From: Myxococcaceae bacterium
Lineage (GTDB): Bacteria; Myxococcota; Myxococcia; Myxococcales; Myxococcaceae
Direction of reading: 5' to 3'
Assembly: GCA_017881265.1 (NCBI GenBank)
Contig: JADGRA010000069.1
Coordinates: forward strand, 1 to 48,564
Length of the DNA stretch: 48,564 nucleotides
Part shown: positions 10,209 through 36,672 of the stretch, one piece after another
Position numbering within the stretch: position 1 is the first letter of the stretch
Layout of the letters: the number at the start of each line of letters is the position of its first letter
Notes under the pieces: generated by a model
What the model was told of the DNA's origin: nothing
The model's database searches: none
The model's input: the letters and a program-made list of their open reading frames with translations, nothing else
Position numbers and translations under genes: made by a program

Positions 10209-11043
10209 GTGGATCGCGAGGCAGACTCGGACGTCCTGTTCGTAGCGCTTTTGCGAAGCGGACCAGTCTTTCGTAATTCGCTCGTTTCAGGACCGGGTCC
10301 TCGCCGGGGAGGACGAAGCACAACTCAGGGCTACCGCACGGGCGGCCAAAGCCACTCTGCATCGAGAGGTACCGCTCTCGTCTCGCGCACCGATCCGAGG
10401 ACCCAAAGGGAAGCGCCATCCTGCGCGGCGTTTCCGCGTTGCGCACCTCAGCTTCGCAGCCACCGCTGTAGAGCTGCCACGCACCTCGGACAGTCGAAGA
10501 GCGCTCTCAGCATCACTTCGTCTCAATGTCATTCACGTATTTGAGCGACGGCCGCCTCGCGGCGAGCCTCCAGGCGAATGGTTTCTGCTGACGAACCTAC
10601 CCATCGACTCACCCGAGGCGATCGCTTTCGCGGTGGATTGCTCTCGCGGGCGGTGGGTGATTGAGGAATTCTTCAAGGCACTGAAGACAGGCTGCCAGTA
10701 CGAGCGACGGCAACTTGAGAGTGCTCACAGTCTTCTAAATGCCCTGGCCATCTTGGCCCAGGTGGCATGGCGGCTGCTGCTCCTGCGGCACTTGGCTCAG
10801 ACCGATGAGAGGGCGCCAGCGACAGCAGCGCTCACGCCCAAACAGCTCGAGGTGTTACACGCTGTCGCGAAGAGACCCCTTCCTACGAAACCTATGGCAC
10901 GCGAGGCGATGCTCGCCGTCGCGGCCTTGGGCGGGCACCTGAAGAGCAATGGGGACCCTGGCTGGCTCGTCCTTGGGCGGGGGCTACACGACCTCGTCCT
11001 CATGGAACTCGGCTGGCGGGGCAGGGAGGAGGCCGAGAAGTGA
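10209..11043 (+). pseudogene. IS4/Tn5-type transposase, truncated and frameshifted
   Basis: The remnant starts as VDREADSDVLFVALLRS, shifts frame near 10258, and continues as FVIRSFQDRVLAGEDEAQLR, NVIHVFERRPPRGE, EWFLLTNLPIDSPEA and RGRWVIEEFFKALKTGCQYE to a stop at 11041-11043. The order matches IS4-family transposases of the Tn5 type, with an (Y)REK-like catalytic Glu in WVIEEFFKALK. About the first third, including the first catalytic Asp, is missing. The last 136 residues remain open from 10633 but would be inactive. It marks the right border of the decayed accessory zone, next to the aryl-polyene cluster. Confidence 0.8.
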
Positions 11044-11704
11044 TCAATCGTGAGAGGCGCACGCTATATCCGCCCGCGTCGCTGCCTGCGTGCGAGATGA
11101 TGGCGCCGGCCTCGCCGGTACGGCCGGGGCGGGCGACAGTCCGTGGTTTCGCCACACGTTCTCGGACCGCAACTTTGCGTCCGAGCCGGAGCCCGGACCG
11201 CTGCGTGTCGAACGCCGATACCCGCCGCGCTGCGCCAGTTTAGAGCTGAGGGACCAAGTTCGTCCGGCCTTCATCGACGTTCAGAGGCAACGGATTGAGG
11301 CGGGAGGTGAATTGGCGAGGGGTTACGGGGAAAGTCGATAGCAACCAGCGCGACCCTCGAGACCTCAAATAGGACGTCGCCACGTGATTGTCATCGGCGG
11401 GCAGCCTTTGAGCGCTGGCGCCGGCTGCCCCCCGCGAAAACCCTTCGTTTCTTCTGCCGCAGGGGGAAAGCGACCCCTGTCGCGAACAGGGTCCTTTCTC
11501 TGGCAAGCTCCTAAACTTCCGTCTCAGCTGTACGGACTGTGAGGCCTTTGAAATCCATGGGCCGCCGATTCTCACTGGCCCAGGCCGCCTCCAGTTAGCC
11601 CAACCCTCCCGCGCTGGCTTGCGGCTTGCTTCCGGGTGAACGACTGTCTAGTTGTTAAGGGCGAGGCAAATTCAGCTGCGCCACGAAGCACAACGCGAAG
11701 AGCG
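11044..11704. other. 661-base stretch upstream of the polyene cluster
   Basis: No convincing gene. Frames at 11090-11341 (plus) and 11044-11274 (minus) lack RBS and recognisable families. It should contain the promoter for the ligase-ammonia-lyase pair; no consensus promoter could be assigned. An imperfect hairpin lies at 11472-11493 (GACCCCTGT and ACAGGGTC arms) followed by CTTTCTC. It may be an old terminator or an attenuator, with low certainty. Confidence 0.4.
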
Positions 11705-13006
11705 ATGGATTCGACGCTGACCCTCTGCGATCGGCTTGCCAACGTACGAGAATTGTATGTAGCGAACGCGTTGGGCCCTTGCTCCCCTGACCCACGACTG
11801 CACGCGAAGACTGTCGGGCGTGACCTAGCTCGACTGGGCTTGGGAAAGGGTGACCGGCTGGCGGTGGTGCTTCCAAACGGCCCTGACTTCGTTGCGACGT
11901 TCATCGCTTGTCTCCAGCACGGGATGACGTTCTTGCCCCTTCACCCGGGCATTTCGGACCATGACCTTGTGGACCGGTGTCGCGCAGCGAGCGTCACCGG
12001 GCTGCTGAGTACCCGGAAAGGTTTGCTCCGGGTTGCTCCAGGCGGCCCATTCCCTTCGCAGTCGACCGATGTTCCGGCCGTTATTTTCTTCACAAGCGGA
12101 AGCTCAGGAACTGCCCGGCCGGTGGCGCTCTCCGGGCAGGCCTTGCTGCACGTGGCGGACACCCACCACGCAGCATTGGGCTACGGCCCAGGCGATACCA
12201 TCACCGGCTACCTTCCTTGGAGCCACACCTTCGGGTTCACCCTCGAGCTTCTGATGGGTCTCTTGTACCAGGGCCTGCTCCGTTCCGTTTCCGCCACGGC
12301 CTTCCCGGAGGTCTTCGACGCCCGGTCGGGTGATTGTCTTTTCACGGTCCCGCGAATGATTGAGCGTCTCTCCGACCGCGCCCTGCGCCACGTACGAGCG
12401 GGGATTGTGGGGGGTGCACCCATCCATGGGCGGGTCCGGCGGCGCCTGCAAGCGACTCGACTTCGCGTCGGCTACGGACAGTCGGAGTGCGGGCCAGGTG
12501 TGTCGCTCGGCGATGCGGGCGAGTGGGAGTTCGACGACTTCCTGGGCCGCGCCGTGGGGTGCGCGGTGACACTCCGCACTGACGCTGGCGAACGCGTTGG
12601 CGAGCTCTCTGTGCAAGGTCCCAATCTGGCGATGGGCTACGTGCAGGGCGACCATCTGATGCCGGTAGCCTCCCCGGATGGATGGCGCGCGACGGGAGAC
12701 CTGGCAACACCGTCTGGCAATGGTTTCGTCTTTCAAGGGAGGAAAGACGAGCTCTTCAAGTTAGACAATGGCCGGATGGTGAACCCCGTTCCCCTCGAGC
12801 GGCCCTACGAGGGCTCCATCCTTCTGATTGGCGAGGGCCGCGGGGCCGTCCAGCCACTGTTGCGAGGCGCGGAGCCGCAGGGCTTTACGCTTCCGGTGCC
12901 CTATCTCCCGCCCAGGGCGATGCCTGAGGACTTCTGGAACGCCTGCACGACTCCGACCGGTAAGGTGTCCCGGCGGCGCGCTCAGCAACTTTTCTATCAA
13001 GCATGA
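11705..13006 (+). CDS. AMP-forming acyl-CoA/ACP ligase (aryl starter activation), 433 aa
   Basis: An ANL-superfamily adenylating enzyme. The P-loop-like A3 motif is FTSGSSGT (129-136), A5 is YGQSE (257-261), A7 is TGDL (330-333), a hinge-region motif KLDNGRMV lies at 352-359, and the C-terminal catalytic Lys lies in PTGKVSR (Lys420). At 433 residues it is compact, like ligases of aryl-polyene loci. The start is the ATG at 11705; the frame upstream lacks ligase similarity. The next gene (ammonia-lyase) overlaps its stop by 4 bases. The likely role is activation of 4-coumarate or a related aryl acid onto ACP or CoA, inferred from the neighbour. Confidence 0.85.
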   Translation: MDSTLTLCDRLANVRELYVANALGPCSPDPRLHAKTVGRDLARLGLGKGDRLAVVLPNGPDFVATFIACLQHGMTFLPLHPGISDHDLVDRCRAASVTGLLSTRKGLLRVAPGGPFPSQSTDVPAVIFFTSGSSGTARPVALSGQALLHVADTHHAALGYGPGDTITGYLPWSHTFGFTLELLMGLLYQGLLRSVSATAFPEVFDARSGDCLFTVPRMIERLSDRALRHVRAGIVGGAPIHGRVRRRLQATRLRVGYGQSECGPGVSLGDAGEWEFDDFLGRAVGCAVTLRTDAGERVGELSVQGPNLAMGYVQGDHLMPVASPDGWRATGDLATPSGNGFVFQGRKDELFKLDNGRMVNPVPLERPYEGSILLIGEGRGAVQPLLRGAEPQGFTLPVPYLPPRAMPEDFWNACTTPTGKVSRRRAQQLFYQA

Positions 13007-16556: not shown

Positions 16557-17015
16557 ATGGTTCTCGTGGCTCGCCTCCGAGCGCAGGTCGAATTGCTCGC
16601 GCGGCAGCACACGACCCCGGGAAAGGTCGCCGTCGCCGTCGGTATGGGCGTCATGCTGGGGTGCAGCCCGTTCCTCGGCGTTCAGGTGGTCCTCGCGGTC
16701 GTGCTGGCCAGACTCTTCCGCCTCAACCCCATCGCCGCCGTCCTCGGCGTGCAGATTTCCATTCCTCCGCTGACACCAGTCGTCCTCTTTGTGACTGCCC
16801 AGCTCGGGGCACTCGTGCTTCGCGGCCACTGGCTCCCACTCCGGCTGGCGGGTTTCCAAAACGTTCCTGCCGCGACGCTGGTGGCCGATTTGTTCCTCGA
16901 CATGCTGGTGGGCGGAGTGCTCGTCGGGGGCGTGTTCGCGGTCCTCCTCGGCAGCGCCTCTGCCGTTGCGGTCTCGCGATTGCAGCGGCAGCCGGTCGCG
17001 CTCCATGGATACTGA
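16557..17015 (+). CDS. DUF2062 membrane protein, 152 aa
   Basis: A small protein with hydrophobic segments at about 25-55 (KVAVAVGMGVMLGCSPFLGV and following), 65-85 (ISIPPLTPVVLFVTAQLGAL) and 110-135 (ADLFLDMLVGGVLVGGVFAV). The GCSPFLGVQ motif and short length match DUF2062, whose molecular role is not established. Family members are often found beside glycosyltransferases. It is divergent from the GT2-acyltransferase gene and overlaps the following halogenase gene by 11 bases, so translation of the two is coupled. The start is ATG 16557; no strong RBS is seen. Confidence 0.8.
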   Translation: MVLVARLRAQVELLARQHTTPGKVAVAVGMGVMLGCSPFLGVQVVLAVVLARLFRLNPIAAVLGVQISIPPLTPVVLFVTAQLGALVLRGHWLPLRLAGFQNVPAATLVADLFLDMLVGGVLVGGVFAVLLGSASAVAVSRLQRQPVALHGY

Positions 17016-18216
17016 CGTCCTGGTCATCGGTGCCGGACCCGCCGGAAGCGTTGCTGGGTCCATTCTGGCGCGACACCACCACCGGGTGGTGATGCTCGAG
17101 GCGGGAACCTTCCCCCGCTTCCAGATTGGCGAGTCTCTCCTTCCGCGTTCGAACGACATCCTGGCCGAGGCTGGATTGCTCGATGCTGTCGTTGCCCGAG
17201 GGTACCAAGCGAAGAACGCCGCTCTGTTCCTCCAAGGCGCTGTGCGTGAGCGTTTTTGCTTTGCGGAAGTGTTTCCGGGACAGCGGACACAAACCTTTCA
17301 GGTGCCCCGAGGGGATTTCGACCAAACCCTGGCCACCACCGCCCGGCAGCACGGGGTGGATGTTCGCTTCAACCAACGCGTCGAGGCAGTCGCCTTCGAC
17401 GCGGGAGGAGCCCTGGTCACAGCCAGCGACGTCGAGACCGAGGCACGCACCCAGCTTCGAGCGCGTTTCGTCCTCGACTGTAGCGGGTACGGAAGGGTCC
17501 TTCCGCGCCTGCTCGCACTCGAGCGCCCGTCGGTCCTCACGCCGCGCGTGGCGCTCTTCACCTGGGTAGAAGGGGACGAGCGTCCGGCTGGAGACCACGA
17601 GGGAGACATCTGGATTTGCATCCATCCCCGAGGAGCCTGGGCGTGGATCATCCCGTTCTCCAACGGTCGGACCTCGGTCGGTCTGGTGATGGAGCCAGCG
17701 GTTTACGAAAGCGTTCCGGGCTGCGACCGAGACCGGTTGTTCAAGCTTCTCTTCGAGGATGAGAACATCCTCCAGCGGCTGCGGCGCGCCGTCCCAGTGC
17801 TCAAGACAGTCAAGCTTCAGGCGTGGTCCAGCGCCGTGGAACGGCTCCATGGCACGGGGTGGGCGCTCACCGGAAATGCAGCGGAGTTTCTAGACCCAGT
17901 GTTCTCCTCTGGCGTGACGCTCGCTCTGGAATCTGCGGCCCGCGCAGCCGCGCTCGTTCACCGTTCTTTCTCCGGGGAACCGGTGGACTGGGCCGCTGAG
18001 TACGACGGCGTGGTGCTCAAGGCGGTCGGTGTCTTCAAGGCCTTTGTCCGGTCCTGGTACGCAGGTGAGCTTCAGAGAGTCTTGCTCCGGGCGGACAAGG
18101 CGGATGCCATCAAGCGCTCGATTACTGCAATCCTGGGGGGCTACGTGCTCGACTCCAACAACCCCTTCGTGCGCGAGCCCGAACGCGCGCTCGCCGCGCT
18201 GTTGAAGCTCGGCTGA
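17005..18216 (+). CDS. Flavin-dependent halogenase-like oxidoreductase, 403 aa
   Basis: An FAD-binding monooxygenase-fold protein of the tryptophan-halogenase group. The dinucleotide motif is GAGPAG (9-14). IGESLLP (41-47) corresponds to the GES loop. Lys70 in QAKNAALF lies where halogenases place the catalytic Lys. The diagnostic WxWxIP motif is exact: Trp212-Ala-Trp214-Ile-Ile216-Pro217. The most likely reaction is chlorination or bromination of the aryl ring or an ACP-bound precursor with reduced FAD; no reductase is encoded nearby. Non-halogenating homologues exist in pigment clusters, so activity is inferred. The start is ATG 17005, overlapping the DUF2062 stop; an upstream TTG is unlikely. 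Confidence 0.85.
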   Translation: MDTDVLVIGAGPAGSVAGSILARHHHRVVMLEAGTFPRFQIGESLLPRSNDILAEAGLLDAVVARGYQAKNAALFLQGAVRERFCFAEVFPGQRTQTFQVPRGDFDQTLATTARQHGVDVRFNQRVEAVAFDAGGALVTASDVETEARTQLRARFVLDCSGYGRVLPRLLALERPSVLTPRVALFTWVEGDERPAGDHEGDIWICIHPRGAWAWIIPFSNGRTSVGLVMEPAVYESVPGCDRDRLFKLLFEDENILQRLRRAVPVLKTVKLQAWSSAVERLHGTGWALTGNAAEFLDPVFSSGVTLALESAARAAALVHRSFSGEPVDWAAEYDGVVLKAVGVFKAFVRSWYAGELQRVLLRADKADAIKRSITAILGGYVLDSNNPFVREPERALAALLKLG

Positions 18217-18228: not shown

Positions 18229-18963
18229 TCAGCTCCTGAGGAGCGACGAGAGGGTCTCGAAGGCGAACCCGCGCTCCTTGAGCTGCTCCAGCAAAAGGGG
18301 AAGGTGCCGGACCGTCTGTTCTCGAAGGGTCGAGTCGCCCCGCAGCTGACCATCGTGCAGGGCCAGGATGCTGCCGGCCCGTGCTCGCCCGGCGAGGGCG
18401 ATCGCGCGGTGAGGCGTGAGCGGGAAGACGCCGTCCCGCGCCGAGTGGGTCCAGGTCACCACCGTCAAGCCCAGGTCACGTGCGGCGGCGTGCACCGGTG
18501 GATTGCGAATCCCCACCGCAGGTCGGTAGTAGGAAGGCGCGCTTCCTGTCAGCTGAGCGAGGACGTCCTGGCAGCGCCGGAGGTCTTTCTGCAGCCGGGA
18601 AGCCCGGAAGAGGTCGAGCCCTGTGCCGTGACTGTAGGTGTGGTTCTCCAGCTGGTGTCCGGAGGCGTGAAGGAACCGCGCGAGCGCGCCGTGCAACTCC
18701 AGTTGACGGCCGATGCAGAAGAAGGTGGCCCTGGCCTGGTGCACCTCCAGAATGTCGGCGATGCGGGCCGTGTGTCGCGGGTCTGGTCCGTCGTCGAAGG
18801 TGAGCGCGACTGCGGGGCGCGTGGTCGGTCCCCGCCAGACGACAGGACCGAAGAGGGCCACCCTCGGATGAAACACACCGAGCGTCGCTGCCGTCAGGAG
18901 ACTGCCGGTGGCCACCGCTGAAGCGACCGCCGCCTGGAGACTGGACGACTCAGGCCCGGACAT
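18229..18963 (-). CDS. NodB-type polysaccharide/amide deacetylase, 244 aa
   Basis: A carbohydrate esterase 4 fold. Motif 1 is TFDDGP (55-60) with the base Asp57 and metal ligand Asp58. Motif 2 is HTYSH (His108 and His112). Motif 3 is YRPAVG (146-151), and LHDG (202-205) gives the late His. All metal-binding residues are present. An N-terminal hydrophobic segment (about 10-32) suggests membrane anchoring or export. It is the last gene of the ketosynthase operon and overlaps the preceding gene by 14 bases. In this setting it may remove an N-acetyl group from a sugar attached to the polyene lipid; this is inference. Confidence 0.85.
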   Translation of the reverse strand: MSGPESSSLQAAVASAVATGSLLTAATLGVFHPRVALFGPVVWRGPTTRPAVALTFDDGPDPRHTARIADILEVHQARATFFCIGRQLELHGALARFLHASGHQLENHTYSHGTGLDLFRASRLQKDLRRCQDVLAQLTGSAPSYYRPAVGIRNPPVHAAARDLGLTVVTWTHSARDGVFPLTPHRAIALAGRARAGSILALHDGQLRGDSTLREQTVRHLPLLLEQLKERGFAFETLSSLLRS

Positions 18964-19876
18964 GACGCACCACGGTCAAGGACTGACCGCCCCCAAGCGC
19001 GAGGCCATGGACTGCGCAGGCGGACCCTGCCGGCGACGCCCGAACGTGCATTGCTGCAGCCACCACGCGGAGCAAGCCGGCGGAGGCATGAAAGCCAAAC
19101 GGCGCCGTCTCCAGGCAGCGCACAAGAGGCGGTTGCACTTCTGCCAGGACTGACGTCTCCGCTTCCAGGACCGCGACGCTCGCCGCGGACAGGGAGACCG
19201 AGTCCACTCCGGTCCCGGGCTTCGTCCCGTCGAGGAGGAGCGGACGCAGCTGCTCCCGGGTGGGGTAGCGAAGGATGGGGCACGAATGGGCCGTGAGCGT
19301 GCAGCGCTCGACGGACAGAGGGCCCGGTTCCCTTCCGAGCAGGATGGCGGCAGCACCCTCTCCGAGGCTCGGCGCGGCGCTGCAATCGAACGCTCTGTAG
19401 CCGGCCGCGAGCGTCTCGGTCCATTCGTCGGCAGCCACCACCAGCACCCGTTCGGCGCGCCCGGTGCCGAGAAGCGTCGTCGCCACCTGCAACGCAGATT
19501 CTCCCGAAATCTCGCGAGCACTCAGTGTCAGGGAAGACCCGTGCGAGCCGAGCATGATGGAGAGCTGGCCCGCGGGCGAGTGATGAACCGACTGCTGGAA
19601 GGCAATGGGGCTCCCAAACGCCGCACCGCGCGTGGCGATGCCTTCGAGAAAGTCCGCTGTGGAGGCGAGGCCTCCGTAGCCAGTCGCAAAGACCAGCGCC
19701 AAGTCCCGCGTCTCCATCCCGGGAGGCAGCGCCCGTTGGGCTGCACCCAGAGCCATCCGCTCCAGCCTGGTCATGCGCTTGGCGCGGCTGTCGGCCAGCT
19801 CCGGGAGCGCTCTGACGCGGTAGGCGTCCTCGACACCGGGGGCCACCAGTCCCAGCCCGAGGATGCTGACGTTCAT
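18950..19876 (-). CDS. Ketosynthase-like (chain-length-factor-type) protein lacking the Cys, 308 aa
   Basis: Resembles the N-terminal ketosynthase-like domain proteins of aryl-polyene loci. It starts MNVSILGLGLVAPG. Where ketosynthases have the STACASS nucleophile, this protein has LSAREISGES, placing Glu122 at the Cys position. The catalytic His pair is also missing and the C-terminal half is short. It is therefore probably a non-catalytic partner, analogous to the chain length factor of type II PKS. Its ATG overlaps the TGA of the intact ketosynthase upstream (19873-21039), supporting a 1:1 heterodimer. The start at 19876 is fixed by this overlap; a much longer upstream frame is out of register with the neighbour. 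Confidence 0.8.
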   Translation of the reverse strand: MNVSILGLGLVAPGVEDAYRVRALPELADSRAKRMTRLERMALGAAQRALPPGMETRDLALVFATGYGGLASTADFLEGIATRGAAFGSPIAFQQSVHHSPAGQLSIMLGSHGSSLTLSAREISGESALQVATTLLGTGRAERVLVVAADEWTETLAAGYRAFDCSAAPSLGEGAAAILLGREPGPLSVERCTLTAHSCPILRYPTREQLRPLLLDGTKPGTGVDSVSLSAASVAVLEAETSVLAEVQPPLVRCLETAPFGFHASAGLLRVVAAAMHVRASPAGSACAVHGLALGGGQSLTVVRHVRA

Positions 19877-21039
19877 TGGGTGGGCCCGGCGAAGACCAGA
19901 GTGGCGTTGTTTCCCCCGAAGCCGAATGAATTGGACAGTGCCACCCGGAGCGAAGCGACCACGCCTCCTGGAGGCACATGCCGGAACGGAAGCAATGGGT
20001 CCGGTTCGCTGAGGCCGGCAGTGGCTGGTGCGAAGCCGGCCGCCAAAGTTAGGACGCAGAAGACCGCCTCCATTGCGCCCGCGGCGCCTAGCGTGTGTCC
20101 GGTGGACCCCTTGGTGGAACTCACCAGCGGCCCTGGCGACGGGAACAGCGCTCCCACCGCCAGCCCCTCGGCGCGGTCGTTGGCCGGCGTGGCCGTTCCA
20201 TGAGCGTTGACGTAGTCGACCTCGGAGGCTTCGACACCCGCGTCCGCGAGGGCCGCCTTCATCGCCGCCAGCGCGCCGAGCCCTTCCGGGTGGGGCGCGG
20301 TCATGTGGTGGGCGTCCGCGGTGCAGCCCCAGCCAGCGACTCGACCCAGGACGGACGCGCCACGGCTTCGAGCGTGCTCCTCGTCCTCGAGCAGTACGAA
20401 GGCAGCGCCCTCGCCCAGGGACAACCCGCTTCGGTTGACGTCGAAGGGGCGGCACGGCTCGCTGGAGAGCAGCTTGAGTGCGTGAAAGCCTGAGTACGTC
20501 AACCGACAGAGCGAATCCACGCCCCCCGCCAGAGCCCAGGGCTTGCCCTGGCGGATGCAAGCAGCACCGTAGCCAATCGCATTGGCGCTGGACGAGCACG
20601 CAGTTGAGAAGGTGTACCGCTCCCCGGAAAGGCCGAGCTCCGAGGCGAGAACATCGGCGATGGCACCCGCTGGATGGTAGGTGAGCAGCTCCCGGTCGGC
20701 CCGACCCTCCTGCCCTCGATGGCGAAGGTAGTGCTGTTCAGATTCGAGAATGCCGCCAGTGGTCGTTCCGACCGCCACTACGCCGCTTCCGGAGAGCACT
20801 TGGTGAGCGAGTGCCTGCCGCGCGGCGAGCAGGGCCAGGGCGACGCTCCGAGAGGGGTGCTGGCCGGAGACCAGGGCCTCGTCCACTTCGCCCACGTGCA
20901 GGGCGGGCAAGCCCGGCAAGGAGAAGAGGGAGAGGGGATGCAGCCCGCGACGGCCTGTACGGAGCCCGTCCAGGTGAACTTCGGTACCGCTTCCTAGTCC
21001 CGAGACGATTCCGAGGCCGGTGATGGCCACCCCGTGCAT
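19873..21039 (-). CDS. Beta-ketoacyl-ACP synthase (intact KAS II type), 388 aa
   Basis: A condensing enzyme with a full active site: Cys148 in FSTACSSS, His280 in NAHGTATPAND, Lys310 and His315 in STKGSTGHTLGAAG. N- and C-terminal thiolase halves are both complete, ending FGFGGNNATLVF. It extends ACP-bound polyene chains with malonyl-ACP. The ACP gene lies 3 bases upstream on the same strand, and the Cys-less ketosynthase-like gene overlaps its stop by 4 bases. This gives an ACP-KS-CLF cassette. Confidence 0.9.
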   Translation of the reverse strand: MHGVAITGLGIVSGLGSGTEVHLDGLRTGRRGLHPLSLFSLPGLPALHVGEVDEALVSGQHPSRSVALALLAARQALAHQVLSGSGVVAVGTTTGGILESEQHYLRHRGQEGRADRELLTYHPAGAIADVLASELGLSGERYTFSTACSSSANAIGYGAACIRQGKPWALAGGVDSLCRLTYSGFHALKLLSSEPCRPFDVNRSGLSLGEGAAFVLLEDEEHARSRGASVLGRVAGWGCTADAHHMTAPHPEGLGALAAMKAALADAGVEASEVDYVNAHGTATPANDRAEGLAVGALFPSPGPLVSSTKGSTGHTLGAAGAMEAVFCVLTLAAGFAPATAGLSEPDPLLPFRHVPPGGVVASLRVALSNSFGFGGNNATLVFAGPTQ

Positions 21040-21042
21040 GCC

Positions 21043-21324
21043 TCATCCTCTCGTTGAATCGACGAAGGCGGCGAGGCTGGCGATGGACTCGAAGTGCCGC
21101 TTGGCCGACCCATCATTGGGAAAGAGAACATCGAATTTGAACTCAATCGCCGACAGGAGCTCGAGTGCGGAAAGCGAGTCGAGGCCGAGGCGGTTGTCCG
21201 GGGCGAAGAGGGCCTCGGCGTCGCCGATGTCCTCGGGTTTCACGCCTTCCAGGCGAAGGGCTTCGACGAGAAGCGACTTGAGCTGGTCGCGGAGGGCGCG
21301 CTGGTTGTCCGGGTTGGTACTCAT
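21043..21324 (-). CDS. Acyl carrier protein, 93 aa
   Basis: A short acidic helical protein with the phosphopantetheine site LGLDSLSALEL, Ser50. Helix II (LSALELLSAIEFKF) is typical, and the C-terminus (FESIASLAAFVDS) forms helix IV. It is the only ACP visible in this cluster, whereas characterised aryl-polyene loci of enterobacteria carry two. It lies between the Tyr-less reductase (4-base gap) and the intact ketosynthase (3-base gap) in one tight operon. Confidence 0.9.
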   Translation of the reverse strand: MSTNPDNQRALRDQLKSLLVEALRLEGVKPEDIGDAEALFAPDNRLGLDSLSALELLSAIEFKFDVLFPNDGSAKRHFESIASLAAFVDSTRG

Positions 21325-21328
21325 GGGA

Positions 21329-22090
21329 CTAGTTCAGGCCACCGTCGATGGAAAGACATTGGCCGGTGATGTAGCCGGCGTCGTCCTCGCACAGCATGTT
21401 CACCATCCCTGCGACTTCGTCGGCGGTTCCCGCCCTTCGCAACGGCGTTCGACGGACCAGCGCCTCGAGCTGCTGGGCGTAAGCCTGGGTGGTCCCTTCC
21501 GTCCGGATCGCCCCCGCGCAGACGGCGTTCACGGTGATACCGAGCGGACCGACCTCCCGCGCCAGCGCGCGCGTCAACCCCAGCACACCGGCTTTAGCGG
21601 CTGCTTCGACCGCTTGCCCCTCACCGCCCTGCAGGGCGGAGGGTGAGGCGAAGTTGATGATTCTTCCGAAGCGGCGCCGGGCCATTGCCTTCACTGCCTG
21701 CTGACACGTGAGGAAGGTTGACCGGAGGCTCAGGTCCAGGACGGCGTCCAGATCCGCCGCGTCGAGGAACGCGGTCGGAGGGCGTGTGTCGAGGCCGGCC
21801 GCATTGACGAGCAGCTCGGGTGAACGACCCATCTCCGCCAGCCGGTCAAAGAGGTCGACCACCTGGGCCGCCCTCGTGAGGTCCAACCGTTCGAAGACGA
21901 CTTCGGGGTGAGCTTCGGCGACCCCCCGCCCGGCCTCTTGGTGACCCTCGTCCTCGGCCAGGTAGATGGCGGTCACCGCATGCCCCTCGCGTGCCAGCCG
22001 GCGAACCACCGCGAGGCCAATCGTTTCGGTTCCGCCAGTGACGAGCGCATGGTGCGCGGTGGGGTACATGACGCTGACGATGTCTACCAC
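21329..22090 (-). CDS. FabG-like SDR with catalytic Tyr replaced by Glu, 253 aa
   Basis: A short-chain dehydrogenase/reductase with TGGTETIG cofactor motif (18-25), NAAG (96-99), active-site Ser149 and a typical C-terminus (GYITGQCLSIDGGLN). In the YxxxK motif, the alignment GQAVEAAAKAG versus GQxNYxAAKAG places Glu162 at the catalytic Tyr; Lys166 is kept. The codon is GAA, two changes away from a Tyr codon, so a sequencing slip is unlikely. Ordinary ketoreductase activity is doubtful. A second, intact reductase is at 27886-28611. The start is GTG 22090, overlapping the upstream stop; ATG 22069 is an alternative. Confidence 0.85.
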   Translation of the reverse strand: MVDIVSVMYPTAHHALVTGGTETIGLAVVRRLAREGHAVTAIYLAEDEGHQEAGRGVAEAHPEVVFERLDLTRAAQVVDLFDRLAEMGRSPELLVNAAGLDTRPPTAFLDAADLDAVLDLSLRSTFLTCQQAVKAMARRRFGRIINFASPSALQGGEGQAVEAAAKAGVLGLTRALAREVGPLGITVNAVCAGAIRTEGTTQAYAQQLEALVRRTPLRRAGTADEVAGMVNMLCEDDAGYITGQCLSIDGGLN

Positions 22091-22908
22091 TGAACGCGCA
22101 GACGGGCCCAGTGCCCCTCCCGTGAGTGGGCTTTGACCTCAACCTGATGCGATTCCCCCCGCTCGACGCACGCCGTCGCCAGGGCGAGCAGGGTTTCGGT
22201 GGCGCAGTCCCCGGCGCCCACGTCGCCCCCAGTGGCCGCCGGCTCGAAGCCGAGCTCTGCATCGCTCAACGTCGGCCATACGGACGGAAACGACGAGGAT
22301 TCCAGAAGGAACAGCGCGGCGACCTCGCGCAGTGGCTCCTCGGACGCGGGGGGATGCACCGGTCCAGCAAGCTCGACACCGCCGGTGATGCAGGCGCGCG
22401 ATTCTCCGCGGCCCAAGCGCCTCGCAGCCCTGACCACTGCCGACAGTCCGCTGATGCCACCTGCGGTGATCGTGGCGAGTGAACCGCGGAGGCCGAGCGC
22501 GATGGCCACCTCTGCCGGCGCGGCTGTGGACAGCGTGTAGACGAAGGTGGATGGGGAGCCAAACCCGCTTCCGCGCTCCCGGAGGTCTCGCAGGAATTCA
22601 CCGTCGGTGGCCGCGGAGCCCCTCGCTGTCCCCAGGAGGAGGTCGGTCTGCGCCGGGTTGGGCGGGGGTGCCGTCGGGTCCGAGGCTGCTCGTGCCATGA
22701 GCAGCGCGTGCGCCAGCTGGACGAGCACGGTCGCCTCCCGATGCGGCCTCCTTGCCTTGGGGTGCGCCACACGGAGGGGAGGGGCTTCGGGCCACGCGGC
22801 GAGGGCGCCCCCCGAGGACCCCGCGTTCGGCCGTGCATTGACCCACACCCCACCGGGGGTCCAGACCGCCGTGGCGGTGACAGCCACGGGTGTATTCAAG
22901 ACCCTCAC
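22084..22908 (-). CDS. Second Cys-less ketosynthase-like (CLF-type) protein, 274 aa
   Basis: Related in layout to the 308-residue protein at 18950-19876 but divergent. The nucleophile region reads TITAGGISGLSA with Gly151 at the Cys position, and no active-site His motifs are visible. Conserved ketosynthase-like landmarks are GTARGSAATDGEFL, FGSPSTFVYTLSTAAPAEVA and CITGGVE. It is probably a structural partner for the intact ketosynthase encoded directly upstream, whose stop overlaps its GTG start (GTGA). It could instead set chain length or recruit ACP; both are inference. Confidence 0.75.
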   Translation of the reverse strand: MRVLNTPVAVTATAVWTPGGVWVNARPNAGSSGGALAAWPEAPPLRVAHPKARRPHREATVLVQLAHALLMARAASDPTAPPPNPAQTDLLLGTARGSAATDGEFLRDLRERGSGFGSPSTFVYTLSTAAPAEVAIALGLRGSLATITAGGISGLSAVVRAARRLGRGESRACITGGVELAGPVHPPASEEPLREVAALFLLESSSFPSVWPTLSDAELGFEPAATGGDVGAGDCATETLLALATACVERGESHQVEVKAHSREGHWARLRVQW

Positions 22909-24074
22909 CCCGGCCTCCGCAGGATGACCGCGGTGTTAATCCCGCCGAAGCCGGCGCTGGCGATGAGGGCGAGGCCGCCGGGCGAAGCTTGGCCCACGCC
23001 GATGACAGCTGGGACGAAGGCCGACGCGTCGATACGCCGGAGGTTGACGACGGGGGGAAGAACCTTCCGGGCGAGCGTCCGCGCGCAGACGGCGATGTCC
23101 AACGCCGCAGCAGCGCCCAGGGTATGTCCGACGGCGCCCTTGATTGCACAGACGGGCACCGGGCGGTTCGCAAAGAGCGACGCGTGAACGACTGCTTCCA
23201 TTCGGTCGTTCTGGACGGTGGCCGTGCCATGCGCGTGGTAGCGGTCGATGTCGTGCGCCGTCACACCGGCGTGTGCCAGCGCTCGCCGACACGCAGCGAG
23301 GAGCCCCGAGCCCGAGGGGTCTGGTGCGGTTTGGTCGAAGCCGTCGACGGCCGAACCGAAGCCCTCGATGAGGGCGATTGGCCTCCGACCCTGGGCCCGC
23401 GCGTGAGCCACTGACTCCACGATGAGAACGGCAGCGCCCTCGCCCAGCGACAGCCCGTTGCGGCTGACATCGAACGGCGCTGCCGGAGCCGCCGACAGGG
23501 CTTTGAGCGCGTGGAACCCTTGGTAAACGAAGGCATGGAGCGCCTCGGTGCCGCCGACCACGACTTCGTCACAGCCACCTTCCTCCACCAGCGCGAGTGC
23601 CTCACCGAGTGCGACGGCGCTGGAGGCGCAGGCGGCTGCGGTCGTGTAGACCGGTCCCCGGGCGCCTGTCGCGGCGGCCAAGGCGCGCGCTGGACTGCCG
23701 AGTACGTCCTCGGCCGGGAGGAGGCCGCGTTCGTGGCTAGAGAGCTCACGCTCCAGCGCTCCCTTGGTTGTGCCCAACACCACGCCGCGTCGCCGGGTGG
23801 GTTCGAGGATGCGTTGGCCAAGCGCATCCGCGAGCGCGGCAAGAAGCAATTGCGACGCTCGGTCCGTCGCTGGGTGCTGGTTGAACCCCGCAGCGGCGGC
23901 GAGCAGGTCGACGTTGTCCGGTACTTCTGATGCCAGAGAGCTGCACAGCCCCGCCGTCGGGAACCGGGTCACCGGCCGAATTGCCGTGCGGCCTTCGAGC
24001 AGCGCGCCAACCGTGACTTCGATGCCGAGCCCGAACCCCGTGACGGCGCCAATGGACGTAATTGCTGCCGACAT
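22905..24074 (-). CDS. Beta-ketoacyl-ACP synthase (second intact copy), 389 aa
   Basis: A complete KAS II-type enzyme with Cys149 in TAAACASSA, His282 in HAHGTATVQND, Lys312 and His317 in IKGAVGHTLGAA. It is the first gene of the minus-strand operon, followed by a Cys-less partner. It is clearly distinct in sequence from the ketosynthase at 19873-21039, so the two are not a recent duplication. It may start elongation from the aryl-ACP, or act at another stage. Its start faces the LolA-like gene across 50 bases, which must hold divergent promoters or one shared control region. Confidence 0.9.
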   Translation of the reverse strand: MSAAITSIGAVTGFGLGIEVTVGALLEGRTAIRPVTRFPTAGLCSSLASEVPDNVDLLAAAAGFNQHPATDRASQLLLAALADALGQRILEPTRRRGVVLGTTKGALERELSSHERGLLPAEDVLGSPARALAAATGARGPVYTTAAACASSAVALGEALALVEEGGCDEVVVGGTEALHAFVYQGFHALKALSAAPAAPFDVSRNGLSLGEGAAVLIVESVAHARAQGRRPIALIEGFGSAVDGFDQTAPDPSGSGLLAACRRALAHAGVTAHDIDRYHAHGTATVQNDRMEAVVHASLFANRPVPVCAIKGAVGHTLGAAAALDIAVCARTLARKVLPPVVNLRRIDASAFVPAVIGVGQASPGGLALIASAGFGGINTAVILRRPG

Positions 24075-24124
24075 GCACCGTGGCCCTCCCGGACCTCCTG
24101 CGGAATGCTTATTCTTCGGCTGGT
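24075..24124. promoter_or_regulatory. Divergent promoter region of the polyene operons
   Basis: A 50-base gap between the starts of the ketosynthase operon (minus) and the carrier/exporter operon (plus). It includes ATGCTTATTCTTCGG, less GC-rich than its surroundings. Synthesis and export genes are therefore likely to be regulated together. No specific -35/-10 or operator could be defined. Confidence 0.4.
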
Positions 24125-24739
24125 ATGTCCGTCCTCACACTAAACGGCCTATTCGCGACGACTTTACTGCTCGCCCTTCACGGCGCGGCCGGCACGTCGC
24201 CCGAGCCCCTACCGCAGGAGCTACTCGCGCTGCGCGAGACCCTGCAACGCACGGAGAAGCTCTCCGCACGCTTCACGCAGACTCGCCATTTGGCCGCCCT
24301 TCGGGATGCGCTGGTGACCGAAGGAACTCTAGACTACCAAAAGGGTGGTCGGCTCGTCTGGCGGACCCTGCCGCCGGCCGAGAGCGAGCTCGTCCTCGAC
24401 GGTCAGCATGCGACCATCAGCTACCCCGGGATGGGCGCCGCGCAGTCGGTCGATTTCTCCTCCGAACCCGGCATGGGCAGGGTTTTCGAGACCATTCGCG
24501 CCGTGCTTCAGGCCGATCTCGACCGCCTGCTCCCGCTGTTCCGCCTGACAGTCGAACGCAAGGAGCCTCTGAGCATCTCCTTGTCACCGCGCTCGGAGGA
24601 GCTCGGACGGACGCTGCGGCGCATCCGGCTCGTGTTCGATCGGAGTCTCCGCTTGGTCCGTGTGGTCCTCACTGAGCCGGACGGCGACTCGACCGAGATC
24701 TCCTTCCGAGACCACAACGTTCAGACCGCGACCCGCTGA
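24125..24739 (+). CDS. LolA-like outer-membrane lipoprotein carrier protein, 204 aa
   Basis: It starts at ATG 24125 with a signal peptide (MSVLTLNGLFATTLLLALHG, cleavage near AAGT), so the product is periplasmic. The mature part shows LolA-like features: an early helical region (LRETLQRTEKLSARFTQTRH), then alternating strands with GTLDYQKGGRLVWRTL. LolA-like proteins are a regular component of aryl-polyene loci, where they are proposed to carry the polyene lipid across the periplasm. It precedes the MMPL exporter by 2 bases, forming an export operon of three genes. In-frame starts further upstream would run into the divergent gene and hide the signal peptide. Confidence 0.8.
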   Translation: MSVLTLNGLFATTLLLALHGAAGTSPEPLPQELLALRETLQRTEKLSARFTQTRHLAALRDALVTEGTLDYQKGGRLVWRTLPPAESELVLDGQHATISYPGMGAAQSVDFSSEPGMGRVFETIRAVLQADLDRLLPLFRLTVERKEPLSISLSPRSEELGRTLRRIRLVFDRSLRLVRVVLTEPDGDSTEISFRDHNVQTATR

Positions 24740-24741
24740 GC

Positions 24742-27177
24742 ATGCTGGCAGGTCTGCACAGAGCCCACCGGTGGATGGCAGCCCATCTGGGCGTCACGCT
24801 GCTGGTCCCCGCGGGCTTCGTGTTGGGCGGGCTCCTTCTGTACGCCCGCACGGCGACGGAGCAGGACGTCGGCGCGATGCTCCCGGACGGACCAGGCTCC
24901 CCGCGAGAAGCGGCCCGGCTCCTCAGTGAATTCGGCGTGCTGAATACGTTGCTCATCGACCTGGAACTCCCGGGAGCAACTGAGGAGCAGCTGGCAGAAC
25001 AGGGCAGTGCGCTCGCCGCCGCCCTGCGAGCCTCGGGGTCATTCACCGAGGTCACCACCGCGCCCTCGAGCGAGGAGATGATGGTGCTGGGACGGGTGCT
25101 GTTCCCGAGACGTCTCTACCTCCTCGAGGACCCGCGCGCCGACATCGAACGGCGACTCGAGCCCGAACGCCTCAAGGTCGCTCTGACCGCACTCCGGAGC
25201 CAACTCGCATCGCCCCAGGCCCTGGTGACGAAGGTCGACTTGCTGCGGGATCCCCTCGGCCTTGACTCGGAGCTCATCGCAGGACTCTCGCAGCTGGCGG
25301 GAGACGTCCACCCCTTTCGAGGTCAGTTGCTCTCGCGCGATGGGCACCATCTGCTCCTGGTGACGACTCCGGCACGGTCCGCGCTCGATGCGAAGGCGTC
25401 TCGGGCGCTGCTCGACACGCTGGCGGGCCTGACCGCTCGGTTGCCTCCCGGTCCCGTAGGCCCCGCCGTGGTGACCGCGGTCGGTGGACCGAGGTTCGCT
25501 GCGGAGACTGCTGAGGTCGTTCGCAAGGACGTCGTCATCACCCTGTTGACGTCGGCGGTCGGACTGAGTCTTCTGTTCCTGGCGCGGTTCAGAAGCCTGA
25601 GGCTCTTCTTTCTCGCAGCCATCCCGGTCGGGCTCGGGATGGTCGGTGGATTCATGGCAGTCGTCCTTGTGCAGGGGCGAATCCATGCACTGACTTTCGC
25701 CTTTGGCTCAGTGCTGATGGGCGTGGGCATGGACTACCCTCTGTACCTTCTCAACGCGGCGTCCGTGCAGCCTGGGGCCGCCATGGCGAGGATGAGCGGG
25801 GGACTCGATGAGACGTGGCGTTCGCTGTGGCTCGGCTTCCTCACCACCCTCATCGCCTTCCTGATGATGCTGCTTTCACACTTTCCGTTCCTGCAGGAAG
25901 CGGCTCTATTTGCCGGCGCAGGCATTGTCACGTCCTTCGCCGCCACGCTGATTCTGCTGGTTCCGCTGTGCGCACGCTGGGGTCCGAAGCGGTGGTCCGA
26001 CGTCCCCGGGTGGATGCCCGCGCTGCAGCGGTGGAGGGTGCCCGCCTGGCTGGCAGGTGGGACGGCGCTGGTCATCCTCGGTGCCTCGGTTGTCCTGACC
26101 CCGAAGTTGCGCTTCGATGGCGAGCTCCGTCACTTGGACGCTCAGCGTCCCCAGACCCTCGCTGCCTTCGAGCGGGTGATGGACCGGTTCGGCCTCCGCA
26201 GTGCCGACTCATTGGTGGTGGCCCGTGGTCATTCCGCCGAGGAAGCCCTGGCCCTCAACGACGCTGTCGGCAGCGTGGTGCGTCACTCGACGGCAGTTGG
26301 AGGGACCTCCGCAGCGCTCAGCGTCGGCTCCTTCCTCCCAGCGGTTGCCACCCAGCGGGCGCGGGCCCAGCGGCTCGCCAGCCTGGATGTGTCCAGAGCG
26401 CGGGCCCAGCTGTCGGAAGCGGCAGTCAAGGCGGGCTTTCTGCCGGGCGCGTTTGACGGCTTCTGGGCAGAGGTCTCGGCGGTGCGGGCCGGGGAAGTCG
26501 CACCGTTGACCTCAGAGGATTTCAGCCTGACGTCCTTGGCCCCGCTGGTTAAGCGCTTGCTTCGGTGTTCGGCGACCTCCTGTATTGCCGTCACCCCCGT
26601 CCAGCTCGGCGGGCCGGCCCAGCTGACAGCCCTCGCCGCAGACCTTCCAACCGGCGCGGTGCTTCTCAACACCGATGCCCTCGCCAAAAATACGATGGCG
26701 AGGATTCCCCGTCAGCTCGCGTTGATGAGCGGTCTTGGGCTCGGACTGAACGTGCTGCTCCTAGCGTTCGCCTACCGGTCGCCGCGACTGGCCGTCGCCG
26801 CCTGTCTTCCAGGGTGCCTCGGGCTGGCAGGGACGATGGCGATTCTCGCGGCGAGCCATAGCCCCTTGAACATCGTGTCGGCGAGCGCCCTGGTGCTCAT
26901 CCTCGGTTGCGGCGTCGACTACGGCATCTTCGCGCTACAAGGCCTCACCGGGCCTTCGCCAGTGACCGGCGTGGAGTCGACCGGGGTCGTGTTGACGGCG
27001 CTGACGTCGCTCATCGGCTTTGGAACGCTCGTCCTCGCGTCGTACCGTGCCTTGCAGTCTTTGGGCGCTGCCGTTGGGCTTGGAATCATCATCAGCGCCG
27101 CCGCAGCCATCCTTCTCCTGCCAGGCTTTTGCCGCTTGCTCGGGTTCCGGGTGCTGAAGGTCGAAGGGTCACCATGA
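24742..27177 (+). CDS. MMPL/RND-type exporter, 811 aa
   Basis: A large inner-membrane transporter of two similar halves, each with one N-terminal membrane span, a periplasmic domain and a bundle of about five spans. The family GxGxDY proton-relay motif occurs twice, as GVGMDYPLYLL (about residue 328) and GCGVDYGIFAL (about residue 721). The length agrees with MMPL proteins of aryl-polyene and hopanoid loci. It is likely to move the finished polyene lipid from the inner membrane to the LolA-like carrier. Its stop overlaps the next start (ATGA). Confidence 0.9.
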   Translation: MLAGLHRAHRWMAAHLGVTLLVPAGFVLGGLLLYARTATEQDVGAMLPDGPGSPREAARLLSEFGVLNTLLIDLELPGATEEQLAEQGSALAAALRASGSFTEVTTAPSSEEMMVLGRVLFPRRLYLLEDPRADIERRLEPERLKVALTALRSQLASPQALVTKVDLLRDPLGLDSELIAGLSQLAGDVHPFRGQLLSRDGHHLLLVTTPARSALDAKASRALLDTLAGLTARLPPGPVGPAVVTAVGGPRFAAETAEVVRKDVVITLLTSAVGLSLLFLARFRSLRLFFLAAIPVGLGMVGGFMAVVLVQGRIHALTFAFGSVLMGVGMDYPLYLLNAASVQPGAAMARMSGGLDETWRSLWLGFLTTLIAFLMMLLSHFPFLQEAALFAGAGIVTSFAATLILLVPLCARWGPKRWSDVPGWMPALQRWRVPAWLAGGTALVILGASVVLTPKLRFDGELRHLDAQRPQTLAAFERVMDRFGLRSADSLVVARGHSAEEALALNDAVGSVVRHSTAVGGTSAALSVGSFLPAVATQRARAQRLASLDVSRARAQLSEAAVKAGFLPGAFDGFWAEVSAVRAGEVAPLTSEDFSLTSLAPLVKRLLRCSATSCIAVTPVQLGGPAQLTALAADLPTGAVLLNTDALAKNTMARIPRQLALMSGLGLGLNVLLLAFAYRSPRLAVAACLPGCLGLAGTMAILAASHSPLNIVSASALVLILGCGVDYGIFALQGLTGPSPVTGVESTGVVLTALTSLIGFGTLVLASYRALQSLGAAVGLGIIISAAAAILLLPGFCRLLGFRVLKVEGSP

Positions 27178-27885: not shown

Positions 27886-28611
27886 CTACATCCACAGCCC
27901 GCCGTTGACGCCAATGACCTGGCCGGTGACGAAGGCGGCCTCGTCCGAGCAAAGGTAGCGGATGACGTGCGCCACCTCGCTCGGTTGGCCGACACGACGC
28001 AGCGGGACCAACGGCAGGTAGGCCTGGACTGGGGCACCTGCGAGCATCTCCGTCTCGATGAATCCCGGCGAGACGACGTTCACGGTGATGCCAAGGCGCG
28101 CGACTTCGAGGGCCAGAGACCGCGCCGCCGAAGCGAGGGCGCCCTTGCTTGCCGCATAGGCGACTTGCCCGGCACTTCCCCGCTGGGCGGCGACCGATGA
28201 GACGACGACGATGCGCCCCCTCCTCTGTCGGACCATTGCTTTCACCACGGGCCGGCCGACGGCCAGGAACCCATTCAGGTTGGTGCCAATGACCTCGTCC
28301 CATTGCGTGTCATCCATTAGGGCGAAGAGTTGATTGTGGGAAATGCCAGCGTTCAACACCACGGCGTCAGGATTACCCAGTTCCTGCAGCAAGGTGTGCG
28401 TGGCGGCTTCTGTCTGTTGGCGGTCCCTCAGGTCGAAGGACACCAGATGTGGCTCCGGGCCGCCGGCCCCGAGGATGGCGGCTGCGACGCTGCGAGCGGC
28501 CGCCTCCTGGCGACGGTAGTGCAACCACACGCGATAGCCTGCTGCGCCAAGCGCGAGGGCCGTGGCAGCACCAATCCCGCGGCTCGCACCGGTGACGAGC
28601 GCCTGCTTCAA
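27886..28611 (-). CDS. 3-oxoacyl-ACP reductase (FabG-type SDR, intact), 241 aa
   Basis: A complete NADPH-dependent ketoreductase: TGASRGIG (7-14), NAG (87-89), Asn111, Ser139, Tyr152 and Lys156 (YAASK), and the FabG-like ending VTGQVIGVNGGLWM. It is the only visible reductase in the cluster able to reduce the beta-keto groups. It begins with a TTG codon just 2 bases after the stop of the small 11-mer-repeat gene, with little RBS of its own. Its translation is therefore probably coupled to that gene. It converges on the lipoprotein gene with a 10-base gap. Confidence 0.9.
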   Translation of the reverse strand: MKQALVTGASRGIGAATALALGAAGYRVWLHYRRQEAAARSVAAAILGAGGPEPHLVSFDLRDRQQTEAATHTLLQELGNPDAVVLNAGISHNQLFALMDDTQWDEVIGTNLNGFLAVGRPVVKAMVRQRRGRIVVVSSVAAQRGSAGQVAYAASKGALASAARSLALEVARLGITVNVVSPGFIETEMLAGAPVQAYLPLVPLRRVGQPSEVAHVIRYLCSDEAAFVTGQVIGVNGGLWM

Positions 28612-31885: not shown

Positions 31886-32074
31886 TTGAGTCTCCTTGAG
31901 ACAGAGCAAGGTAGGTATCGCGCCCCTCCACGGCAACCCGCGTCGAGGTCTGTGCAAGCCAGCGCGCGCAACCGTTGCGGGGTGCCGCTCAGCCCATCCA
32001 CAAGCCGGCGGGCGACGGGCTCCGGAACCAAGGGACGCGTTCGCGGAATCTCCGGAAGGGCGCCCGCATCGCCC

Positions 32075-33871
32075 TCAGTCGGACTCGTCAACGGTGAGCT
32101 GGTAGCTGTCCTGGAAGTTGGATTCGCGGTTCTTCGAGTCCTGCACCTTGAAGAAGTACGTTCCAGGCTCCGCCGCATAGCGGATGACTTCCGGGGCGTC
32201 GCCCTTCGCGCGGTCGGCCGTCTGGACCAGCGTGAGCGAGCCGTCCGCCTCCTGCCGGTAGAGAAACAGCGCCACGTCCACCTTGAGGATGCCGGTGAGG
32301 GTCGCCCGCAGCGGCGTCTTCACTTGCCGGTCGCCGAGGTCCAGGCGGTAGAAGTCCACGTCGCGCTTCGGGTACACCGTCCCGCGGATGGGCTTTCCGG
32401 GGGAAAGGGGAGTGGCCGTCGCCGGCGAGTCATTCGGCTCGCGCTCCTCGGCGCCGGTGTCGGGCGTCGTCGTCACGGTGAGGCGGTACGGCTGGTCGGC
32501 ATTCTCGAAGTCCCGCACCCACTTGCCGTCCACCTTGCGCGGGGCCCCCTCCACCCTGACGTAGCACTCGGTGGCACAGGCCACGCTGTTGAGGCGTTCC
32601 GGCTCCTTCACCGCCCCGTCGTTGGATTTCAGCAGCACCTTCTCGGTGCCAGGCTTGTCGCCGGGTGCCACCACCGAGAGGACGAGGTCCACCCGGTCGA
32701 GGCCGGACAACTCAAAGCGCGCCAGCGACGGCTGGGGCACCCGCAGCACGTAGTAGTCGACGTCGCCGGCCGGGGAGAGGAAGCCCTCGCGGTAGCCGTT
32801 GACGGGGAGCGGCGTGGCGTGGGCCAGGTCGTCGTTGGGCTCATACTCTGCGTTGGCGCCAGCAGCTTCGCGGGACACGGTGAGGGTGTAGGGCATTGCC
32901 GCGTTGCTGCCGCGGTGGGCATCCTTGCCGGCGCCCGTCCAGGCGCTGCGCACCACCACGTAAACGACTTTGTCCGTGCCCCGTACGGCGACGTTGCGTT
33001 GGTCGAAGGGCTGCCCTTCCTGGCCGCGGCCGAGAAAAAGCTGCGCCTGCGCTTCGGAGAGGACCTGCACCTCGAAGCGCACGCCCGGCACGGCCGTCAG
33101 GTTGAGGCGCAGCGGCACGCGGGCCACCTCGACCGGCGATGCCATGTTGCCCCCGTCCCCCGCCGGCGCCTCGGGTGGCGCCGGCAGGGCAGGGGGCGGC
33201 ATGGCCAGCGGTCCCGCGTCCGGCGGCATGGGGCCGGCATCGCTTGTGTCCGACGGCGCCAGCTCCAGGCGGAAGTAGTCCTCGTCGCCGGAATGGGCGA
33301 GGAAGCCCTTCACCACCCAGGGCCCCTGGCCTTCGGGCGTGGACGTCACCTCGGTGGCGTCGGCCGCCCTGTCATTGGGCTCCACCTCCATCCCAGGCAA
33401 TGGCTCGCCGAAGAGGAGGGACAGGGTGTAGGCGCCGCCCGTTCCACGGCGCGCGGCCGATACCTTGAGGAGCAGCTTGTCCTTCACCGAGAGGTTGGGC
33501 AGGTGGGCCGGCCGGCCCGCGCCGGCGCCATTCACGACGGCCAGGCGGTTTTTGGCGACGTCGTACACCTCCAGCACCCCCACGGTTCCCGGGATGCCAC
33601 TCAGCGTGACGTCCACCAGACGGGGATGGTCGGCGAAGAGGAGGTACCAGTCCTCGTCGGGCTTGGCCGGGTCGGCCGTGAGGCTGCCGGCGACGAGGGT
33701 GGACTCGCCAATGGCCATGGACTGGTCGGGCCTGTCATTGGGCTCGACTTCCGCCCGCCGGACAGGGCCTGCGTCCGCCGACGGCGGTGGGGCAGGGGCG
33801 GGGGCCGGACGGGGGCAGGCCGTGGCCAGCAGGTACAGCAACAGCGGGGCGGCGCGCGTCGTCAGTTTCAA
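32075..33871 (-). CDS. Lipoprotein with four PPC-type domains, 598 aa
   Basis: The signal MKLTTRAAPLLLYLLATAC ends at lipobox Cys19, followed by a Pro/Ala linker. Four repeats begin with the bacterial pre-peptidase C-terminal signature: EVEPNDRPDQSMAI, EVEPNDRAADATEV, EYEPNDDLAHATPL and EREPNDSPATATPL. Each is followed by a DxDxY/F strand pair such as GDEDYFRLEL, GDVDYYVLRV and RDVDFYRLDL. These jelly-roll domains usually accompany secreted peptidases, but no peptidase domain is present here. It is probably a surface- or periplasm-facing binding protein. A Cys pair (VACATECYV) lies in the third unit. Confidence 0.85.
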   Translation of the reverse strand: MKLTTRAAPLLLYLLATACPRPAPAPAPPPSADAGPVRRAEVEPNDRPDQSMAIGESTLVAGSLTADPAKPDEDWYLLFADHPRLVDVTLSGIPGTVGVLEVYDVAKNRLAVVNGAGAGRPAHLPNLSVKDKLLLKVSAARRGTGGAYTLSLLFGEPLPGMEVEPNDRAADATEVTSTPEGQGPWVVKGFLAHSGDEDYFRLELAPSDTSDAGPMPPDAGPLAMPPPALPAPPEAPAGDGGNMASPVEVARVPLRLNLTAVPGVRFEVQVLSEAQAQLFLGRGQEGQPFDQRNVAVRGTDKVVYVVVRSAWTGAGKDAHRGSNAAMPYTLTVSREAAGANAEYEPNDDLAHATPLPVNGYREGFLSPAGDVDYYVLRVPQPSLARFELSGLDRVDLVLSVVAPGDKPGTEKVLLKSNDGAVKEPERLNSVACATECYVRVEGAPRKVDGKWVRDFENADQPYRLTVTTTPDTGAEEREPNDSPATATPLSPGKPIRGTVYPKRDVDFYRLDLGDRQVKTPLRATLTGILKVDVALFLYRQEADGSLTLVQTADRAKGDAPEVIRYAAEPGTYFFKVQDSKNRESNFQDSYQLTVDESD

Positions 33872-34846: not shown

Positions 34847-34885
34847 GCCAGGCGTCGGAAATGGCCCCCGAAGCCGAGGGGGTCT

Positions 34886-36644: not shown

Positions 36645-36672
36645 GCCGTCGTTCCTCCTTGGGTGCGGCCCG

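Follow-up and report, generated by a model that had tools for sequence, protein, structure and literature searches.

Gene organization of the two ketosynthase pairs

The stretch of DNA described here (the window, 48,564 nucleotides) is contig JADGRA010000069.1 of assembly GCA_017881265.1, a 4.4 Mb genome, 95.7% complete, of a soil myxobacterium of the family Myxococcaceae. It carries a gene cluster in which two ketosynthase (KS) genes are each followed by a gene for a KS-like protein without the catalytic cysteine. An earlier note, made from the sequence alone, had drawn attention to these two pairs, and our analysis confirms both. We call the partners chain length factors (CLFs) and the pairs KS1-CLF1 and KS2-CLF2. 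Together with a ketoreductase (KR), an acyl carrier protein (ACP), and a polysaccharide deacetylase, they form a minus-strand operon in the order KS1-CLF1-KR-ACP-KS2-CLF2-polysaccharide deacetylase:

22905..24074, minus strand: KS1, ketosynthase of 389 amino acids (aa); PF00109/PF02801; catalytic Cys149-His282-Lys312-His317
22084..22908, minus strand: CLF1, 274-aa KS-like partner without Cys, GTG start; PF00109, weak, 36.7 bits
21329..22090, minus strand: KR, FabG/FlxB-like ketoreductase; PF13561; TIGR01830 and FlxB models below cut-off
21043..21324, minus strand: ACP, 93 aa, LDSL serine; PF00550; sole ACP of the cluster
19873..21039, minus strand: KS2, ketosynthase of 388 aa; PF00109/PF02801; catalytic Cys148-His280-Lys310-His315
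18950..19876, minus strand: CLF2, 308-aa KS-like partner with Glu122 at the Cys position, ATG start; PF13723, 66.8 bits
18229..18963, minus strand: FlxP-like polysaccharide deacetylase directly 3' of CLF2; PF01522; equal place in Aureispira

The start of CLF1 overlaps the stop of KS1 by 4 bases (GTGA), and the start of CLF2 overlaps the stop of KS2 by 4 bases (ATGA). Residue alignment places Gly at the Cys position of CLF1 and Glu at that of CLF2, and in these points, as in the overlaps, the earlier note had read the sequence correctly. The KR and ACP genes sit between the two pairs; the ACP that the note assigned to both is indeed the only one in the cluster, and the remaining ACPs of this genome lie on other contigs. 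The pairs had also been called divergent, which holds for their sequences (KS1 and KS2 are about 37-40% identical in cross-matches) and fails for their transcription, since KS1, CLF1, KR, ACP, KS2, and CLF2 are all on the minus strand.

Conservation and selection

The same operon is found in Citreicoccus inhibens M34 (G017 among the genomes compared), its sister G032, G012, and G006, and pieces of it occur in G002, G005, and G009. All Myxococcaceae genomes found to have KS2 also hold KS1-CLF1 (8/8), G005 and G009 as contig-end pieces only. A KS1-based scan of 84,980 genomes, whose peptide patterns were narrow, found only Myxococcaceae, and a search of plasmid DNA returned generic KSs only.

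The catalytic Cys, both His, and the Lys are invariant in KS1 (6 orthologues) and in the KS2 orthologues. In CLF2 the Cys position is occupied by Glu in 7/7 orthologues, while the CLF1 orthologues differ there (G, A, T, S, E, A, S); a special meaning of the Gly in CLF1 can therefore be rejected. The ratio of nonsynonymous to synonymous substitution rates (dN/dS), computed from the closely related genomes G017 and G032, is 0.17 for CLF1, 0.13 for CLF2, 0.19 for KS1, and 0.09 for KS2. Because they are conserved across genomes and their dN/dS is well under 1, both partners are, by sequence comparison, maintained genes under purifying selection.

Evidence for cognate pairing

Natural gene fusions join the partners in several lineages. 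KS2 and CLF2 form a single open reading frame in G005 (L039 5263-7401), KS2-type KS-CLF fusions occur in G150, G153, G192, and G193, and a KS1-type KS is fused to a CLF1-type partner in G159, a member of another Myxococcota family. The trees of the two protein types match as well. In the KS tree, KS1 forms a clade with Aureispira KSb, G159, G157x, and G192x (support 97/95); in the CLF tree, the partners of this clade group with CLF1 (96/87); and when the pairs are taken as units, type 1 appears as a single split (93/95). KS and CLF distances are closely correlated (Mantel r 0.92; 0/9999 permutations as high), and exchanging the partners of a single genome, tried with each of five Myxococcaceae, brings r down to 0.52-0.74. 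The fusions and the matching trees thus support, at gene level, an exclusive tie of each KS to its own neighbor. A recent duplication of one pair was rejected, as the two types fall into different old clades; on this phylogeny, KS1-CLF1 and KS2-CLF2 are old, separate lineages.

Single-chain AlphaFold models of CLF1 and CLF2, built from few sequences (mean predicted local distance difference test scores 70 and 67), have the KS fold across their full length, with VIA Z 17.3 and a root-mean-square deviation (rmsd) of 4.8 Å over 239 residues for CLF1, and VIA Z 19.0 and an rmsd of 3.2 Å over 250 residues for CLF2. Foldseek matches of these models include the CLFs of AntDE and ishigamide (6smp_C, 6kxd_B); ApeC is not among the fold-search matches listed for the partners, which does not exclude a likeness to it. 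The best PDB match of KS2 is 9s5h. The earlier note had spoken of two KS-CLF heterodimers: two KS-CLF-type pairs are borne out, with each KS tied to its neighbor by fusions, trees, and the swap test, and for both pairs we infer putative physical dimers.

A flexirubin-type cluster

The starter genes expected of a flexirubin (Flx) cluster, an aromatic ammonia-lyase and an acyl ligase, are present by domain match. The Flx-type run of KS/CLF genes followed by a polysaccharide deacetylase, with LolA and a glycosyltransferase (GT) nearby, was likewise found. The closest parallel is plasmid pAUEa of Aureispira anguillae (Bacteroidota), where genes for an ammonia-lyase, FabG, a KS, an ACP, an acyltransferase, a hypothetical protein, and a thioesterase are followed by those for a KS, a 187-aa KS-like protein, an ACP, a KS, a chain length factor, a polysaccharide deacetylase, and LolA. 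Both KS-like partners on pAUEa lack Cys at the aligned position, and the stretch KS-short KS-ACP-KS-CLF-deacetylase-LolA resembles that of the window.

Another example is the flx cluster of Chitinophaga pinensis (flxA-flxY), which includes an ammonia-lyase assayed as tyrosine ammonia-lyase, a coumarate ligase, and five putative ketosynthases, FlxC, FlxI, FlxL, FlxN, and FlxO, in addition to a deacetylase, an acyltransferase, LolA, a glycosyltransferase, and an exporter (PMC3992019). These five KSs can be read as FlxC plus two KS-CLF pairs. The C. pinensis cluster, known here by description, shares the acyl ligase with the window, and common to both flexirubin-type clusters and the window are the ammonia-lyase, FabG, several KSs, the acyltransferase, GT, LolA, and deacetylase. 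The window differs in having one ACP instead of two, in lacking an FlxC-like KS, a dehydratase, and a thioesterase within the cluster, in its extra MMPL exporter and halogenase-like oxidoreductase, and in its Myxococcota host. No dar genes were recognized: the search of the window genome gave three matches of the β-ketoacyl-ACP synthase III (KAS III) type, one FabH-like, one KAS III/type III polyketide synthase (PKS)-like, and one below cut-off.

Since the Aureispira cluster of Bacteroidota has the same gene order, the locus is not a new system; it represents, in Myxococcaceae, the flexirubin-type layout with fewer genes. Judged by gene content and sequence, it shares ancestry with the Bacteroidota flexirubin-type cluster. 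Aryl polyenes and flexirubin are not mentioned in a survey of conserved Myxococcota clusters. Among the bacteria with this operon, Citreicoccus inhibens is cultured and lemon-yellow (PMC8538283).

Components missing from the window genome

In Citreicoccus and G032, the set is enlarged by an ApeR-like KS (KS3), an FlxC-like KS (KS4), a FabA/FabZ-type dehydratase, and a desaturase-like flavin adenine dinucleotide (FAD) oxidoreductase, which lie beside a second short-chain dehydrogenase/reductase (SDR). Orthologues of KS3 or KS4 occur in G002, G005, G009, and G012; none were found in G006 or in the window genome as assembled. The latter also yielded no dedicated dehydratase, and a single FabA/FabZ-type dehydratase was found in it. 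Sequence comparison suggests that the two pairs are the core shared with relatives, KS3 and KS4 being absent here and in G006. As ApeR-like and FlxC-like KSs are missing, the pairs may be the whole dedicated condensing set of this species, barring assembly gaps. A small locus for a polyketide or a lipid lies apart from the cluster in the window genome (L130 6621-10267, G000:C61); in it, a type III PKS/KAS III-like gene is followed by genes for an ACP and an acyl-activating-enzyme-like protein.

Comparison with other KS-CLF systems

The aryl polyene (ape) clusters of Escherichia coli CFT073, Xenorhabdus, and Acinetobacter resemble the window in having a KS with a short CLF (ApeO-ApeC), an ACP, and a KR, as well as a GT2/acyltransferase, LolA, and MMPL. 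They combine one KS-CLF with an ApeR homodimer, two ACPs, and dehydratases, whereas in the window a second KS-CLF pair is present and ApeR is absent. The comparison with ApeO-ApeC suggested in the earlier note was made: CLF2 is the nearer to ApeC in the CLF tree, and KS1 falls outside the ApeR clade, a position by which its identity as an ApeR was rejected.

Two or three KS-CLF pairs within one reducing type II system have already been described (PMC9381841). In youssoufene synthesis, YsfB-C starts the chain, YsfD-E makes C18, and YsfJ-K extends it to C20 and C22 (PMC9381841). Compared by description, these youssoufene/cinnamoyl-lipid type II PKSs (ysf, gla) share with the window the presence of two or three pairs, which there assemble one polyene in a modular manner (PMC9381841); unlike the window, they are actinobacterial, form their ring from the polyene itself, and have no ammonia-lyase starter. 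No isomerase, for which no aimed search was made, is among the annotated genes of the window. Iga11-Iga12 of ishigamide and AntD-AntE of anthraquinone synthesis share the KS fold with the partners described here; their CLFs are longer, and each system has a single pair.

Other paired loci were also observed. In another genus of the family, locus L104 (G034:C234:92001-110000) encodes an ACP, a KS, a CLF, two SDRs, a second KS, and a KS-like protein whose Cys position holds Asn, and is probably a further double KS-CLF arrangement of type II. A plasmid of Streptomyces sp. NBC_00335 (L115 2508-7897) carries two pairs: in one, a KS is accompanied by a KS-like protein with Ala in place of Cys, and the other is a fused KS-CLF. 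Priestia plasmid pBM500 (L116 4603-7032) carries a fused KS-CLF.

Flanking genes

On both sides of the operon lie the remaining genes of the cluster:

11636..13006, plus strand: adenosine monophosphate (AMP)-binding acyl ligase, putative coumarate/cinnamate ligase; PF00501
13003..14514, plus strand: aromatic amino acid ammonia-lyase, putative FlxA-like role; PF00221, 415.7 bits
14405..16654, minus strand: glycosyltransferase 2 (GT2) and LpxL-type acyltransferase fusion; PF00535, PF03279
16578..17015, plus strand: DUF2062 protein, start approximate; PF09835
16966..18216, plus strand: FAD-dependent halogenase-like oxidoreductase, start approximate; PF04820; NF033113 below cut-off
24062..24739, plus strand: LolA-like carrier, probably starting downstream of 24062; PF03548; LolA2_flexi below cut-off
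24742..27177, plus strand: MMPL-type exporter; PF03176
27168..27875, plus strand: putative lipoprotein, start approximate; about 51% identity in G017/G032; no Pfam match
27886..28611, minus strand: second FabG-like SDR, which in G017/G032 heads the KS4-dehydratase-oxidoreductase-KS3 run

That run is missing at the window locus, and the putative lipoprotein gene is kept beside LolA in relatives. The halogenase-like enzyme (16966-18216, plus strand) has the WxWxIP motif as WAWIIP and is 76% identical in relatives. Some flexirubins are chlorinated, and by analogy this enzyme may chlorinate the aryl ring. At the left cluster edge, a weak transposase DDE match (10633-11043, plus strand) is possibly a remnant. 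GC and third-position GC climb from about 32 kb (32000-48564), third positions reaching about 90% versus about 75-80% in the cluster; from this contrast, the cluster may have been acquired.

Proposed mechanism and alternatives

We consider it probable that the locus is a flexirubin/aryl-polyene-type cluster in which two cognate, putative KS-CLF heterodimers divide the work on one chain. The ammonia-lyase would supply a cinnamate or coumarate starter, to be activated by the AMP ligase. The single ACP would carry the chain through condensation by KS1-CLF1 and KS2-CLF2 and ketoreduction by KR, and dehydration would probably fall to the housekeeping FabZ, as the cluster has no dedicated dehydratase. 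The predicted product is a conjugated aryl polyene pigment, which would be joined to lipid and exported via the GT2-acyltransferase, LolA, MMPL, and lipoprotein. The two heterodimers would split early and late elongation, as the youssoufene KS-CLF pairs do. By this analogy, division of labor on one chain is most likely and the simplest reading, since KR, ACP, and starter route are each present only once; the present data give no ranking of which pair acts first.

Several observations weigh against this interpretation. A partner swap in Aureispira or G157 leaves r at 0.911 and 0.927, respectively, versus 0.919, so that pairing in these two is founded on adjacency and long-branch trees. CLF1 and CLF2 are short and far in sequence from solved CLFs (best PDB matches E about 1e-4). 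The cluster is without a dehydratase and a second ACP, unlike the ape clusters, and the incompleteness of the assembly means that the absences in the window genome are not final.

The foremost alternative, which we regard as unlikely but deserving of attention, is that KS2-CLF2, the pair nearer to ApeO-ApeC, alone is the polyene synthase, with KS1-CLF1 priming, editing, or raising the rate in an ApeR-like manner. The ApeR homodimer offers the precedent, as it raises ApeO-ApeC throughput and is dispensable for full-length chains in vitro (PMC8358021). The absence of ApeR-like KS3 from the window genome and G006, the closeness of CLF2 to ApeC, and the KS2-type fused pairs of G150 and G153, where no KS1-type partner was detected, point the same way. 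However, KS1, lying outside the ApeR clade, has its own Cys-less partner, and Citreicoccus, G002, G005, and G009 hold KS1-CLF1 together with ApeR-like KS3.

Weaker still, and in our view improbable, is the synthesis of two chains via the same ACP and KR, an aryl polyene and a second acyl chain that could, for example, be esterified to it. The ancient separation of KS1 and KS2 is compatible with this, as are the second lipid part that flexirubins carry and the need of the LpxL-type acyltransferase for an acyl donor. Yet the operon has a single KR-ACP set and a single starter route, Dar enzymes build the second part of flexirubin (PMC3992019), a search of the window genome turned up nothing clearly DarB-like, and ordinary fatty acids could supply the acyltransferase. 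Finally, that the Cys-less genes are decaying duplicates is extremely improbable and was rejected: the partners are shortened and evolve faster than their KSs, CLF1 most, but their dN/dS is low, their frames are open in all genomes whose contigs cover them, they are conserved in 8/8 genomes with a predicted KS fold, they are fused to KS in several lineages, and the Glu of CLF2 is invariant.

Significance

The polyene assembly of flexirubin has been described only as involving "several putative ketosynthases" (PMC3992019). We tentatively suggest, as a possibility somewhat short of even, that flexirubin-type synthases are an old reducing type II PKS branch of Bacteroidota and Myxococcota in which the chain is passed between KS-CLF heterodimers on one ACP; the window species would then stand for the minimal version, having no dedicated condensing enzymes beyond the two pairs. 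The finding places a flexirubin-type cluster in Myxococcaceae, including Citreicoccus inhibens, whereas a survey states that flexirubin is confined to Bacteroidota (PMC10734526). The two conserved KS-CLF pairs, their natural fusions, and the reduced two-pair cluster provide a small gene set for testing sequential versus parallel use of heterodimers.

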